In this document: positions 2,865 through 10,172 of the stretch, piece after piece
Position numbering within the stretch: position 1 is the stretch's first letter
Layout: each line of letters begins with the position of its first letter
DNA from: Candidatus Poribacteria bacterium
Lineage (GTDB): Bacteria; Poribacteria; DTPJ01; WJIO01
Length of the DNA: 12,974 bases
Direction: 5' to 3'
Assembly (NCBI GenBank): GCA_014730235.1
Contig: WJIO01000264.1
Span: 1 to 12,974, forward strand
Translations under genes and position numbers: made by a program
The notes under the pieces: generated by a model
What the model was told of the DNA's origin: nothing
The model's input: the letters and a program-made list of their open reading frames with translations, nothing else
Databases searched by the model: none

Positions 2865-5108
2865 TTATTGTTGGCCTAATAGCTTCTGTATGGTTTCCCT
2901 GAGATTTACTAGCTGGAAAGGCTTTTCCAGATAAGGATTACCTGTTTCTTGCAGGAATTTCTGGGTGTCAGGGTTTGTTACGTCCCCGGTGATGAATATC
3001 ATACGTTTGGCAAGTTTCGGGTCTTTACGTTCTATAAACTTATGCAGCCGGTCACCGGTAAATCCACATGGCATTCTCAGGTCTGATATAATCAGATCGT
3101 ATTCTTCAAATTCCAGTTTTTCCATTGCCTCGTTTCCATCCCGGGCAATATCGGCTATATGACCCATCTGGTTAAGAACTGTTGATAGAAGGTCTACAAC
3201 ATCAGGATCGTCATCTACTACCATTATTTTTTTGCCGGTTTCCAGGGAATAAATTTCCGATTCATCGGTGGTTTCCTCAGAAATTCCTGTCTTTTCATCC
3301 ACTGAGGGTATTTCTAAGGTAATAGTATTACCTTTTCCTATTTGGCTGTATATACGGATATTGCCGCCCATATTTCTAAGAACCTGGCATGAAATGCTTA
3401 GTCCCAGACTAATGTTATTATCCGCATATGAATCAAAAGAAAATGGATCCCGCATCCTTTCAATATCATCCTCGAGAATACATGTTCCTGTGTCCTCAAA
3501 TTGTATTATTATGTAACCATCTTCGTATTTGGTGGTTATAGTCAAACGCCCTCCGTTGTCATATTCTACCATCCGCTGTTCTGCATACTGCATAATACGC
3601 AAAATCAACCTTTGTATGCTGCTGGAATTAGGAACTGTACCGGGCATTCCGCGACCTAATCTGGTGTAAACATCTATATTGTTTTCCCATAATTGATGAC
3701 GTTTTAGTTTCAGGGCACTCCGGATCAGATCGTTTATATGCGGCTTTTCCCTTCGGAATTCATTTTCTTTTGCTATAGCCAATACGTTACGGACAATTTC
3801 AGCACATCTTTCAGATTCTTCATAAATCTTTGATACCATGCTGTTAATGTCATCTCCATCTTTTCTGTTAAGCAGCATTTGGGAATATACGGTTAAAGGT
3901 GTAAATCTGTTATTCAATTCGTTTGCCACATTAGAAAGCAGTTCGCCCATAGAAACTAACCGTTCCCATTGCATCATCCGTTCCCAAACCTTTGTTTTTT
4001 CCTGCAAGCTATAAATAAAGAAAATAGCTCCTATAATTCTTTCTTCATCACTCCTGAAAGGATGGGCGTTCAAATTTACACTTACTATACTCAGATCTCT
4101 ACGTATATGGTCTATTTTTTTTATATCAACCGATTCACCTTCTAAAAGACTCTCCAGGAGTTCCTGACATTCGACATGGTAATCGGCAGGAAATACCATT
4201 TCGCAAAAGGAATTGTTAATCATTGATGATTTTTCATATCCATAAAGATCACAAGCAGTCTGGTTGCAAAAGCTTATATTACCTTTTTTGTCTACAATTA
4301 CTATGGCCTGGGGAAAATTATCCAGCATATTAATTGGGATAAATTGCTCTTTTAAGTCTAATTTATCAGAAGAGCTTTTGCTCAAATAGATTCCCATTAT
4401 TTTGCCGGCTGTGGTAAATATTTTCCTGTCCTCTAAATCATAAAAGCGAGGATTGGAAAATTTGATACGGGCAATTGATAATATTTCATCATTGGTAGTA
4501 ATTGGAAAAAATACTGACAAATTGTCATTGTAATATATGACAGCCTCTTTTCTATTTATGGCTTTCCGAACAGACTGCATTTCTGGTTGCGTTAAAGGAG
4601 AAACATAGCTGGAATCAGCGATGTCCGATGGTAGCAAGATAGTTTTTGCATCTTTATCAAAAACTCTGGCAAACTGGAGTAAAATGTTATCAGGCTCCAA
4701 AGTTGATTCTGCAATAGAATTTAAGAGTATATCAACAGCCCGAAGCTTAGTATGTTGCAAAGATTTATCCGATTCCTGCAGTTTTTCCACAATCAAAACA
4801 AGATGCTTGTCTAAGTCCTCATCAGAAGAAATCAATGCAGCCCTTAATTTTACAGGAACAGGCATACCTCCTTTTGCATATAATACGCTTTCACCATATA
4901 ACCAATCAGAACCCCTGCTGTCATCTGTCAAATGTTTAATCAAAGCCTGGTCATGGAGTATATCCGAAATGTGTTTTCCTTTTAATTCACCACTGCGATA
5001 ACCAATCATAACCCTTGCTACTTGATTACAACGTCGAACACTCATATTTTTATCAAAATCAAGCACACCATCAGAGCTTACAAATAACAGATCTTCATAA
5101 GTGAGCAC
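2865..5108 (-). CDS. Degenerate hybrid sensor histidine kinase (PAS, GAF-like, PAS, HisKA-like, HATPase, receiver)
   Basis: 747 aa, soluble, no membrane segments seen. Apparent domains: PAS (about 1-110); a GAF-like region (about 125-245); PAS (about 258-370, with FPQAIVIVDKKGNISFCNQTA); dimerisation/phosphoacceptor-like helices (384-445); HATPase-like (455-603); receiver (627-745). The H-box region reads MGELLSNVANELNN, with N396 (codon AAC, 3921-3923) where family members have the phosphorylated His. The ATP-binding part is also eroded: the N-box reads ILRIMQYAEQRM without its usual Asn; G1 is DTGTCI (539-544) instead of DxGxGI; G2 is NISLGLS (565-571) instead of GTGLGLS. The receiver keeps its key residues: the acidic run D632-D634, phospho-accepting D676, T707 and K729. 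It probably works as a receiver or scaffold protein rather than as an autokinase (inference). The start is GTG at 5108, with GAGGAG 10 nt upstream; an ATG in between is out of frame. It follows coaD by 14 nt. Confidence 0.85.
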   Translation of the reverse strand: MLTYEDLLFVSSDGVLDFDKNMSVRRCNQVARVMIGYRSGELKGKHISDILHDQALIKHLTDDSRGSDWLYGESVLYAKGGMPVPVKLRAALISSDEDLDKHLVLIVEKLQESDKSLQHTKLRAVDILLNSIAESTLEPDNILLQFARVFDKDAKTILLPSDIADSSYVSPLTQPEMQSVRKAINRKEAVIYYNDNLSVFFPITTNDEILSIARIKFSNPRFYDLEDRKIFTTAGKIMGIYLSKSSSDKLDLKEQFIPINMLDNFPQAIVIVDKKGNISFCNQTACDLYGYEKSSMINNSFCEMVFPADYHVECQELLESLLEGESVDIKKIDHIRRDLSIVSVNLNAHPFRSDEERIIGAIFFIYSLQEKTKVWERMMQWERLVSMGELLSNVANELNNRFTPLTVYSQMLLNRKDGDDINSMVSKIYEESERCAEIVRNVLAIAKENEFRREKPHINDLIRSALKLKRHQLWENNIDVYTRLGRGMPGTVPNSSSIQRLILRIMQYAEQRMVEYDNGGRLTITTKYEDGYIIIQFEDTGTCILEDDIERMRDPFSFDSYADNNISLGLSISCQVLRNMGGNIRIYSQIGKGNTITLEIPSVDEKTGISEETTDESEIYSLETGKKIMVVDDDPDVVDLLSTVLNQMGHIADIARDGNEAMEKLEFEEYDLIISDLRMPCGFTGDRLHKFIERKDPKLAKRMIFITGDVTNPDTQKFLQETGNPYLEKPFQLVNLRETIQKLLGQQ

Positions 5109-5122
5109 AGGGAATCATCTCC

Positions 5123-5605
5123 TCAACAGGAAAATTTCTCCTTTAGTTTCAGCTTAACCAGATCGGGAACAAGACCATCCAGACATCCTCCGACACTGGC
5201 AACTTCTTTAACAAGACTTGACCTGATATACGAATGTTGCAGACTTGTCATAAGGAACACTGTCTCTATTTCACTGTCCAGGTTACGGTTCATCAGGGCC
5301 ATTTCCAACTCGAATTCAAAATCCGATATAGCCCTTAAACCTCTTACTATAACCCTTGCTCCATGGCTTCTGACATAATCCACAGTTAAGCCTGATATTT
5401 TGTCTACCGTTATCCTATCATATTTCTTTGTAAGTTCCTTTACCATTTCAAAACGTTCATCAGTGGTGAAAAGCGGGGCTTTGCCGTGATGATGGGCTAC
5501 CGCAACTATAATCCTATCAAAAATACATAGAGCGCGTTCAATAATATCCACATGTCCATTTGTTATTGGATCAAAACTACCGGGATAAACAGCTAATTTC
5601 CGCAT
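5123..5605 (-). CDS. coaD: Phosphopantetheine adenylyltransferase
   Basis: 160 aa, the normal family length. It transfers AMP from ATP to 4'-phosphopantetheine, the penultimate step of coenzyme A synthesis, in the cytoplasm. The nucleotidylyltransferase pattern is complete: YPGSFDPITNGH (7-18) with the TNGH ATP-binding motif; VRGLRAISDFEFE (87-99), which contacts substrate; IETVFLMT (113-120); and the C-terminal SSLVKEVASVGG (129-140). One position differs from the most common form: YIRSS where many CoaD proteins have an ISSS stretch. ATG at 5605 has a GGAG site upstream. The sensor-kinase-like gene follows 14 nt downstream, so the two are probably one transcript. That pairing is likely incidental, as coaD is a housekeeping gene with varied neighbours. 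Confidence 0.96.
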   Translation of the reverse strand: MRKLAVYPGSFDPITNGHVDIIERALCIFDRIIVAVAHHHGKAPLFTTDERFEMVKELTKKYDRITVDKISGLTVDYVRSHGARVIVRGLRAISDFEFELEMALMNRNLDSEIETVFLMTSLQHSYIRSSLVKEVASVGGCLDGLVPDLVKLKLKEKFSC

Positions 5606-6852: not shown

Positions 6853-7908
6853 TCAAAAAACAAACATAACTTTATTAAAAAATTCCTGTTTTTTATACAT
6901 CATATCAAATACTTCCACAGCTTGTTTAAGATTAAATCTGTGGGTAATGAGGTTTTCCAGATCAAGAGCTTTGGAACTCATAAATTGCAGAGCCGTTTTC
7001 CATTCGTTTTTAGGAACAGCCGTAAAGCTTGAGTTCCACGTTCCGTATATCGTCAACTGCCCCCTGAGAATGGCTGAAGCTGTCTTTTCAGGTATAGTAA
7101 CGTTTCCGCTAACATTACCCATAAGAACGACTTTACCCAGCTTTCTTACTATCCTTAATGACTGTTCAAATGTGACAGGGGTGCCGGCAGCTTCTATACA
7201 TAAATCTGCGCCTATGCCACCGGTTTCTTTGATTACTGTCTCAACAGGATCGTTTCGCCTTGAATTGATACAGTTCTTAAAACCGTAATCCTTTGCGACA
7301 GAGAGTTTTTCATCCACTATATCCGTGACAAATACCCGACCAGCGCCGCAGATTCTCGCCCACTGAGCCAATATTATACCTATAGGGCCTGCGCCCAGAA
7401 TTACAACGTTATCACCGGCATCCACTCCCGATCTCCTGAGGGCATGAAGGGCAACAGAAGCAGGTTCGGTCATTGCAGCCCATTCAAAACTGACGTTATC
7501 GGGAACTTTTACGAGATTCGCTATGGGAGCAGTTATATACTCCGCAAATCCGCCGTCAGTTCTGGAACCGAGGTAATCGTAATTATCACATTGGGCGTAT
7601 TCGCCGATCTGGCAGTATGGACATTTTCTACAAGGAATTAGCGGAAATACAGCCACCTTATCACCGGCTTTAAAATCAGTGGAAATATCTGAATTAATTT
7701 CGGATATCTCACCGGCAAACTCATGCCCCGGTATCAATGGGAACGAGTAAGTTCCCTTTTTCTTGACCCGCGGTACATCTGAACCACACACGCCAGCAGC
7801 TTTGACTTTAATCAGCGTTTCCCCCGGATTAAGTTCTGGAACAGGTACATCCTCGTAGCGCAGATCACCAACGGCATGAAGCACCGCCGCTTTCATTTTT
7901 TCAGGCAT
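6853..7908 (-). CDS. GatD-like zinc dehydrogenase (galactitol-1-phosphate 5-dehydrogenase family)
   Basis: 351 aa medium-chain dehydrogenase. The first domain reads like galactitol-1-phosphate 5-dehydrogenases: GVCGSDVPRV (39-48), a PLIPGHEFAGEI stretch (57-68), AVFPLIPCRKCPYC (86-99), and DYLGSRTDGGFAEY (111-124). The C-terminal GTWNSSF (289-295) and the ITHRF (321-325) plus QEFFNKV (341-347) signatures also fit that group. Catalytic zinc: C41, H62-E63, E148. Structural zinc: C93, C96, C99, C107. Rossmann loop GAGPIG (172-177), with D196 at the end of the second strand, indicating NAD. ATG at 7908 overlaps the end of cooC by 8 nt and has AGGAGA 11 nt upstream. A second in-frame ATG at 7896, where MKAAVLH begins, is also conceivable but lacks its own site. 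Members of this group act on several polyols and polyol phosphates, and no PTS or phosphorylating gene is nearby, so the substrate is open. Confidence 0.88.
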   Translation of the reverse strand: MPEKMKAAVLHAVGDLRYEDVPVPELNPGETLIKVKAAGVCGSDVPRVKKKGTYSFPLIPGHEFAGEISEINSDISTDFKAGDKVAVFPLIPCRKCPYCQIGEYAQCDNYDYLGSRTDGGFAEYITAPIANLVKVPDNVSFEWAAMTEPASVALHALRRSGVDAGDNVVILGAGPIGIILAQWARICGAGRVFVTDIVDEKLSVAKDYGFKNCINSRRNDPVETVIKETGGIGADLCIEAAGTPVTFEQSLRIVRKLGKVVLMGNVSGNVTIPEKTASAILRGQLTIYGTWNSSFTAVPKNEWKTALQFMSSKALDLENLITHRFNLKQAVEVFDMMYKKQEFFNKVMFVF

Positions 7909-8686
7909 TATTAAATAAATCTCCTAATTCATTAAAAATTTCTCTAAATTTACCCTTAAAATCCGATTTTATATCGTAAGGGGAAATTCCCTCTAAATCA
8001 GCTTCTACAAGCTTTTCGTCATAAGGTAGAAAACCCATTATTTTAAAATCTGCAAGATTTGATCTTATTATTTCTTTTGTTTTATCGTTTCTTATTTTGT
8101 TACCAATAACAGCTATCTGTGGAATTCCTATACCATGTGCTAAATCCCTGATGCGTTCTGCCGTCTCAAAGCTCAACTTCCCCGGTTCTACCACGATAAT
8201 CAGCAGATCAACGGCCTCTCCTGTGCCTCTGCTGAGGTGCTCGATTCCGGCTTCCATATCCATGATAATTATATCATCAGTCTTTAACAGCAGGTGCTTC
8301 ATCAACTCACGAATAAAGGCATTTTCGGCGCAGTAACATCCACTTCCGCCCTCTTTTACAGAGCCTACCTGAAGGAATCTGACACCTTTATGCAAAATGC
8401 TGAATTTTTCAGGAATATCATCAACCTTTGGTCTGGATTTAAAGAAAGTGCCAAATACACCAAAGTCCTTAGCTCCGGTTCTATCCTTGATCATATCTTT
8501 CATCTCAGATAGAGGTTTTATATTCTCTATCTGTTTATCTGACAGACCTATACACCTGGCCAGGCTGGAATCGGGATCCACATCAACAGCCAGAATATTA
8601 TAATCATTCTCGGCATACATCCGGGCCAGCATACCTGCTATAGTGCTTTTCCCCACACCCCCCTTTCCTGCTACCGCTATTTTCAT
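7901..8686 (-). CDS. CooC-type nickel-insertion ATPase (carbon monoxide dehydrogenase maturation factor family)
   Basis: 261 aa P-loop ATPase of the MinD/NifH class. The deviant Walker A is GKGGVGKST (7-15), with K8 and K13. DVDPDSSLA (35-43) is the switch I region. The CooC hallmark is GSGCYCAEN (114-122), whose C117-x-C119 pair binds nickel or zinc at the dimer interface in characterised CooC. DMEAGIEHLSRGT (143-155) and VVEPGKLSFETA (165-176) follow, both typical. The length matches CooC. Known CooC proteins use ATP hydrolysis to deliver nickel to the C-cluster of CO dehydrogenase, but no such gene is in the window. ATG at 8686 is preceded by GGTGA. The GatD-like gene overlaps its last 8 nt, so the two are translationally coupled. 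It heads a three-gene run with two zinc dehydrogenases. Family assignment is firm; the client protein is unknown. Confidence 0.88.
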   Translation of the reverse strand: MKIAVAGKGGVGKSTIAGMLARMYAENDYNILAVDVDPDSSLARCIGLSDKQIENIKPLSEMKDMIKDRTGAKDFGVFGTFFKSRPKVDDIPEKFSILHKGVRFLQVGSVKEGGSGCYCAENAFIRELMKHLLLKTDDIIIMDMEAGIEHLSRGTGEAVDLLIIVVEPGKLSFETAERIRDLAHGIGIPQIAVIGNKIRNDKTKEIIRSNLADFKIMGFLPYDEKLVEADLEGISPYDIKSDFKGKFREIFNELGDLFNNA

Positions 8687-8818: not shown

Positions 8819-9154
8819 TCAATTAGCAATGATAATCATATATTTAAGCGTTTCAGGCCCGGGGTTGCTAATGCCGTGCATTTTTGGACCTTCTACAAAC
8901 ACAGCCGTATTTGGGCCAGCTTTAAAGGACACTCCCTCCAATGTGATCCGGGCTTCGCCCTCGAGGATAAAGAAAATTTCTTCCCCTTCATGAGTATGTT
9001 CCTCATGGGCTCGCATACCGGGTTTTATTACAGATATGTGCATCTTGAGCTTTTTTGCACCTATGGTTTCATCTACATAAATTTTGGCATATCCCTCTGG
9101 ATCTTCAGGCTTTCCTCTTAACCTTGCTTTGTCCCATGAAATTACAGATGCCAT
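8819..9154 (-). CDS. Small single-domain cupin protein
   Basis: 111 aa, one cupin_2-type beta barrel. Motif 1 runs from PGMRAHEEHTHEGEEIFFI to G66, with metal-binding candidates H53, H55 and E59. Motif 2 reads GPKMHGISNPG (89-99) with H93 and the conserved N97. Such small cupins act as sugar isomerases or epimerases, dioxygenases or sensors; nothing here decides which. The start is ATG at 9154, because AAAGGA lies 7 nt upstream and the cupin homology begins just after. A longer reading frame extends to 9325 but that extension lies inside the upstream oxidoreductase gene. The gene follows the Gfo/Idh/MocA gene by 28 nt and probably shares its transcript and pathway. Confidence 0.85.
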   Translation of the reverse strand: MASVISWDKARLRGKPEDPEGYAKIYVDETIGAKKLKMHISVIKPGMRAHEEHTHEGEEIFFILEGEARITLEGVSFKAGPNTAVFVEGPKMHGISNPGPETLKYMIIIAN

Positions 9155-9182
9155 AATAATGTCCTTTCTATATTTGGTTAAT

Positions 9183-10172
9183 TTACTTAATAACGCCGGA
9201 TGCCCGGAGGACAGTTTCCTGGACAATAAATTCATGATCAAGGCTTCTGTCCGGTTTTTTCTCACCTCTGATGTCCGCCACCAGGGCCACCAGTTCGCCG
9301 TCATATCTGGACCGTTTTTCCACATTTACAACCTGCCAGCCTTTTACAAAATTTCCCCTGGCTTCATGCAGACACAGCCTGACAGTTGGATTTTGCCTGG
9401 GTTCAATAGGTTCCATTATAACACTGCCCTTTGTTCCATACACCTCAAATCTTCGGGCTTCAAAAGCCCCTACTTCCAGGGCTGATGATTCCAAATGTGC
9501 TATGGCCTTGTCATATTCAAAGACTGCCATGCAATTGTCCTTGAATTCTGGATGCTTGCCCAACTCGTTCCTTAAAAATGGTGTTACTTTATTTGGCCTT
9601 CCCAAAAGATAAACCACTATATCCGTCAGATGGCAAAGCAATTCAAAAAACATACCTCCGGGATATTCACTCAGGAAAATCCTTTGCTGGTTTTGATAAA
9701 GGCTGGACATGTGTCCCCGCACTGAGAAAATATTCCCCAGACTGCCCTCTTTTACCCTATCAAAAAGAAATTGGAAACCTGAGTTATAACGAAACATGTA
9801 ACCAAGCTGAACCATCAGATTTTTTTTCGCAGCTATATCCAGTATTTCCTGAAATACCTTCAGATCAGTTCCCGCCGGTTTATCAAGCCATACATGCTTG
9901 TCATGATTGACACACTCCCTGGCAAAAGTAAGGTTGTCCCTTACATATCCCTCCACAGCTACTGCTGATATAGATTCATCTTCCAGCATCTGATCCTTTG
10001 ATTCATACCATCTTACACCCTTATATACCTCTGCACCGGCTTTTTTCTCGTGCACTTTTGAATCAGGTTCAAATATTCCACAGAACTCTACGTTGGGATT
10101 TCTTTTCATAGCGTCGGTTTTGCCTGATGCATGGGCATGAGCTATACCGTATTGAGCCATTTTTACAGACAT
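9183..10172 (-). CDS. Gfo/Idh/MocA family oxidoreductase
   Basis: 329 aa, the usual length. Members oxidise, reduce or epimerise sugars and inositols using NAD(P). An N-terminal Rossmann domain (about 1-120) is followed by the alpha/beta substrate domain (about 121-329). The glycine-rich loop is unusual: MAQYGIAHAHASGK (5-18) in place of GxGxxG. I recall a sub-branch of the family with a similar Q-Y-G-x-x-H start, so this may be a normal feature of the subgroup. The EKP motif is DKP (97-99, in WLDKPAG). The catalytic-region motif reads GGMFFELLCHLTDI (172-185) with H181 and D184 where the family has its conserved His and acidic residue. ATG at 10172 is preceded by GGGAGGT. No signal peptide. 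The cupin gene follows 28 nt downstream. An operator-like palindrome lies 35-42 nt upstream of the start. Confidence 0.9.
   Translation of the reverse strand: MSVKMAQYGIAHAHASGKTDAMKRNPNVEFCGIFEPDSKVHEKKAGAEVYKGVRWYESKDQMLEDESISAVAVEGYVRDNLTFARECVNHDKHVWLDKPAGTDLKVFQEILDIAAKKNLMVQLGYMFRYNSGFQFLFDRVKEGSLGNIFSVRGHMSSLYQNQQRIFLSEYPGGMFFELLCHLTDIVVYLLGRPNKVTPFLRNELGKHPEFKDNCMAVFEYDKAIAHLESSALEVGAFEARRFEVYGTKGSVIMEPIEPRQNPTVRLCLHEARGNFVKGWQVVNVEKRSRYDGELVALVADIRGEKKPDRSLDHEFIVQETVLRASGVIK

Follow-up and report, generated by a model that had tools for sequence, protein, structure and literature searches.

The window analysed here comprises the whole of contig C198 (12,974 nucleotides), from a Candidatus Poribacteria genome (G000) assembled into 451 contigs with a total of 5.53 Mb and a completeness of 91.6%. 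On the minus strand, positions 2865..5108 encode a putative pseudo-histidine kinase (pseudo-HK) of 747 amino acids with a PAS-GAF-like-PAS-DHp-CA-REC layout. Its GTG start codon was backed by the alignment of the N-terminus (MLTYEDLL) with that of a homologue from a second genome (MLSYKDLL). The gene lies 14 bp downstream of coaD (phosphopantetheine adenylyltransferase; 5123..5605, minus strand), and the next gene downstream is convergent. As the likely GAGGAG ribosome-binding site of the pseudokinase (5119-5124) overlaps the coaD stop codon, the two genes may be translationally coupled. Elsewhere in the window, a CbiA-family P-loop ATPase (7901-8686, minus strand), CooC/ParA-like by eye, adjoins a pair of zinc-type dehydrogenase genes, and the window contains no carbon monoxide dehydrogenase. 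A listed cupin-like open reading frame (8819-9325, minus strand) begins inside an oxidoreductase gene (9183-10172), and its translation probably begins with the internal ATG at MASVISWDKARLRG.

Domain organization of the pseudokinase

Domains were delimited on the basis of Pfam matches, predicted secondary structure and an AlphaFold2 model (mean pLDDT 77.9), which contained a PAS-like N-terminus, a GAF-like domain, a second PAS domain, two long DHp helices, a CA domain and a receiver. Since the pTM of the model was only 0.36, the arrangement of these domains was not predicted. All the features described below lie on the minus strand. The N-terminal PAS domain (residues 1-112; 4773..5108) was recognized from a PAS_9 match on the N-terminus of the homologue together with the strands and helices of the model, while the GAF-like domain (residues 113-250; 4359..4772) was assigned from predicted secondary structure only, with no Pfam match to these residues. 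The second PAS domain (residues 260-367; 4008..4331) matched PAS_9 with an E value of 2.4e-20. The DHp/HisKA dimerisation domain (residues 376-450; 3759..3983) scored 30.0 bits against HisKA (cut-off 26.9) and corresponded to the two long helices of the model (368-414 and 419-446). The CA/HATPase_c domain (residues 451-604; 3297..3758), whose ATP site is degraded, was identified by Pfam (44.6 bits, cut-off 26.4), by motif alignment and by its modelled fold, which matched that of DivL (4q20; Z 19.7, 140 residues, 2.1 A). The receiver (residues 625-747; 2868..3236) is fused at the C-terminal end, with a Response_reg match above the cut-off at residues 628-740 (71.9 bits, E 6e-20) and a modelled fold matching that of Spo0F (6ifh; Z 19.3, 118 residues, 1.4 A).

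Degeneration of the transmitter and integrity of the receiver

The original prediction placed Asn396 (AAC, 3921..3923) at the position of the phospho-accepting His, and both the codon and the alignment with HisKA domains agreed with this assignment. It had also described a parallel erosion of the ATP site, which was corroborated against L002, an intact paralogue (G000:C365; 33% identical across 477 residues). In the alignment of both proteins, the H-box changed from HELNNPL in L002 to NELNNRF in the window protein, and the N-box from LINNAHQAM to IMQYAEQRM, with both Asn positions occupied by R504 and Y508 (residues 504-508, RIMQY; 3585..3599). The G1 box changed from DTGPG to DTGTC, the second Gly being replaced by Cys (residues 539-543; 3480..3494). 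The lid DPFFTTK of L002 became DPFSFDS and the G2 box GKGTGLGLS became DNNISLGLS, so that FTTK and the first GxG were missing from the ATP lid and G2 region (residues 555-570; 3399..3446) by alignment and model; the lid (555-566) was modelled with pLDDT values below 50. Accordingly, the window protein has neither the H-box His nor intact N, G1, F and G2 boxes of a functional hybrid histidine kinase, while its receiver carries the acidic pair (D632/D633) and the predicted D676, T707 and K729, all of them present in the homologue as well. Its HisKA and HATPase_c domains are still recognizable despite the loss of the His and of ATP-site elements, as in pseudo-HKs.

Replacement of the His was rare among the distinct H-boxes of the retrieved loci. 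In the genome of the window, 48 of 50 carried His, the exceptions being the pseudokinase (Asn) and a kinase on contig C373 (Gln); in the second genome (G001), represented by a similarity-drawn sample and not by a complete census, His was found in 15 of 16, the homologue (Asn) being the sole exception. The kinase with Gln (L102:338-1099, minus strand, within G000:C373:2000-3300) has the H-box sequence TQKMRSPLSAV and, as its N-box (LILNA), G1 box (DSGCG), FTTK and GLGL are intact, it may still bind ATP.

A homologue in a second genome

The homologue was found in G001, the sole other genome of the order examined, which belongs to a different family and has an 88% complete assembly. It is 748 amino acids long and aligned end to end with the window protein, with 37% identity. 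Its H-box reads AANELNN, with AAT as the Asn codon, and its ATP site is also altered (IINDAEQRM at the N-box, DTGTC at G1, no FTTK and INIGL at G2), yet the counterparts of the receiver residues listed above are all kept. The original prediction had left room for a sequencing error, one base separating CAC from AAC. Because the independent homologue also has Asn at this place, and the N-box, G1, lid and G2 are lost in both proteins, an assembly or sequencing error at codon 396 was rejected, with a probability that we consider negligible.

The H-box Asn and the G1 Cys are common to both proteins, as are the stretches ANELNN, AEQRM and EYDNGG, while the remaining lesions differ in detail, a pattern that fits a single ancestral loss followed by independent drift. 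No His of the DHp region was conserved in the alignment of the two proteins, which ruled out a substitute acceptor shared by both within this domain. Among 84 genomes of the phylum no third member of the family was found (threshold E 1e-70), and a single-sequence contig scan yielded only distant receiver or kinase matches and no further members; the N-terminus had no match among phage records.

Descent and sequence constraint

In a maximum-likelihood tree of 23 transmitter-receiver regions, with bootstrap values not fully settled, the window protein and its homologue were monophyletic (100/99) and fell inside a group (100/99) with the intact kinases L002, L022 and L023. The exact sister of the pair was unsure (84/59), and its stem and tips were longer than those of L002. 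Close homologues with intact boxes, which would have counted against a pseudokinase family, were not seen, as the three intact kinases branch outside the pair.

The identity between the two pseudokinases in the transmitter core was 38% (DHp 40%, CA 37%), compared with 48-67% in 11 functional histidine kinase pairs, defined as the reciprocal-best pairs of the two genomes among the retrieved loci. In the receiver, identity reached 56-57%, vs. 54% and 49% for two pairs of functional hybrid kinases. Synonymous sites were saturated (pS 0.75), while pN was 0.43 overall, 0.41 in the CA domain and 0.27 in the receiver, and neither of the two frames contained a stop codon. Judged from these identities and from the pS and pN values, constraint is inverted relative to functional histidine kinases: the receiver is the best-kept part, and the transmitter is relaxed yet not neutral.

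The faster divergence of the transmitter core compared with functional kinases, as well as the long branches, could also be expected from a decaying gene en route to loss. However, in both families the frame has stayed open over approximately 748 codons, 247 codons being one step from a stop, synonymous saturation stands against a far lower pN, and the catalytic residues of the receiver are all retained, so that decay was considered very improbable. The maintained pseudokinase of the original prediction was thus supported by a monophyletic clade without His, with saturated synonymous sites, a pN well below them and no stops, in which the same state is found in another family, although the clade has two members only.

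Proposed function and alternatives

We favour, with moderate confidence, a maintained pseudo-HK in which autokinase activity would have been lost, the receiver would be loaded in trans, and the dead PAS/GAF/PAS dimer would serve as a switchable scaffold. According to this explanation, the DHp helices would dimerise the protein and the PAS-GAF-PAS region would act as sensor, autophosphorylation being presumably impossible. Phosphate would reach the receiver in trans, donated by another histidine kinase or by a small phosphodonor, and the phosphorylation state of the receiver, together with the sensory domains, would set the shape of the dead transmitter dimer, which in turn would act on another protein. 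The pN of the CA domain, compared with saturated pS, places this dead domain far from neutrality, which fits a scaffold. If this explanation is true, the pseudokinase would be a clear example of a transmitter that has exchanged its enzymatic role for that of a scaffold, its attached receiver being still in use.

The main rival is a phosphatase-only HisKA protein, in which E397 and N400 (ExxN) would assist in the dephosphorylation of its own receiver or of another one. It holds this place since the two proteins are identical in the ExxN stretch that follows the lost His (ELNN, residues 397-400; 3909..3920); NELNN as a whole was preserved although the flanking residues drift. The H139N substitution of NRII is reported to yield a kinase-dead phosphatase, a case that was given no weight here. 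HisKA phosphatases normally retain a nucleotide-binding CA domain, however, and the window protein is devoid of the ATP lid and N-box motifs. The His contributes to HisKA phosphatase activity yet is not essential for it, and a review of pseudo-HKs saw no sign of phosphatase activity as a general role of the class (PMC12632262). Moreover, the pseudokinase DivL does not act as a phosphatase, and it stabilises DivK~P (PMC4211667). On the whole, a phosphatase was considered unlikely.

A regulatory heterodimer partner, whose DHp domain would associate with its counterpart in an intact hybrid kinase, inhibiting or redirecting that kinase, ranks third, after the scaffold and the phosphatase, and was regarded as a slightly more doubtful option than the latter. 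The genome of the window does encode the paralogue L002, which is intact and shares the PAS-DHp-CA-REC layout, and heterodimers of kinase pairs are documented for HrrS and native ChrS (PMC9491836). Nevertheless, this reading does not need the receiver, the best-conserved part of the protein, and a search of the G001 assembly (88% complete) for L002 yielded no close orthologue, the best match being the pseudokinase, followed by paralogues with 30-33% identity; L002 was consequently rejected as an obligate partner.

Gene neighbourhood and candidate partners

The gene neighbourhoods of both pseudokinases were compared. In G001, the homologue is overlapped by 7 bp by a CheR-PAS gene (L096:278-2110, plus strand; 610 aa, CheR E 4e-53) and is convergent with a REC-GAF-PAS-HK gene that adjoins a secretin gene. 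The genome of the window also encodes a CheR-PAS homologue (L109:1441-3345, plus strand; 634 aa, 38% identity), as a solitary gene at C267, unlinked to the pseudokinase contig. A conserved neighbourhood was rejected: in the window the pseudokinase gene follows coaD, in G001 it adjoins CheR-PAS, and a look for coaD in the G001 assembly gave no match.

Full-length CheR-PAS was present only in these two genomes of the 84, nearly all other matches corresponding to the CheR part alone. This distribution and the overlap in G001 make CheR-PAS a candidate partner of the pseudokinase; however, the co-occurrence may reflect common descent, since it involves only two genomes of the order and two members of the family. 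CheR-PAS would be the best candidate target of the scaffold, a pairing that the available sequences weakly suggest. As for the phosphorelay, every Hpt domain detected in the two genomes belonged to a long open frame (697-1629 aa); with no stand-alone Hpt among them, a soluble Hpt was rejected as the next relay step.

A more specific and rather speculative proposal, which we hold to be improbable as it stands, couples two proteins into one device: the kinase-dead hybrid sensor, switched by phosphorylation of its own receiver, would control a stand-alone CheR-PAS methyltransferase. If true, phosphotransfer signalling would feed protein methylation outside an ordinary chemoreceptor array.

Comparison with known systems

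The closest described architecture, likened here by description, is that of CCNA_03265 (CC3162) from Caulobacter crescentus, which, like the window protein, is a hybrid histidine kinase without the conserved His and with the receiver Asp kept (PMC11481889). It was picked up in a hyper-adhesion screen and its mechanism is not settled; the authors of that study propose either that an Hpt phosphorylates the Asp or that the protein forms heterodimers with a different hybrid kinase (PMC11481889). While in CCNA_03265 a neighbouring His (H151) might take over, no His of the DHp region is conserved between the window protein and its homologue.

DivL is likewise a PAS pseudokinase with a replaced His and a conserved CA fold, which binds ATP poorly and whose dimer reads a phosphorylated receiver (PMC4211667). 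The His position is occupied by Tyr550 in DivL and by Asn in the window protein and its homologue. Moreover, DivL reads a separate response regulator, DivK, whereas the window protein carries its own intact receiver, and DivL still binds TNP-ATP weakly, whereas the N-box and lid motifs of the window protein are gone. The frameshifted ChrS of Corynebacterium glutamicum is also a kinase-inactive relative of histidine kinases, with an effect that depends on a paralogous kinase; unlike the window protein, it is laboratory-evolved, keeps its His and works with a separate response regulator, ChrA (PMC9491836).

Within the same phylum, L002, L022 and L023 have their domains in the same order as the window protein between DHp and REC (33-36% identity), and L002 also has in common with it the second PAS domain and the receiver signature TGD..NPDTQKFL. 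All three keep the His, N-box, G1, FTTK and G2, and do not have the PAS-GAF N-terminus of the window protein. Pseudo-HKs are already a recognized class, and 722 of 76,471 sampled HisKA domains (0.9%) were reported without His (PMC12632262). A role has been established for few of them; in the present case, the pattern of constraint marks the receiver as the selected part and a second genome provides a candidate partner, and it is the inverted constraint and the link with CheR-PAS that are worth following.
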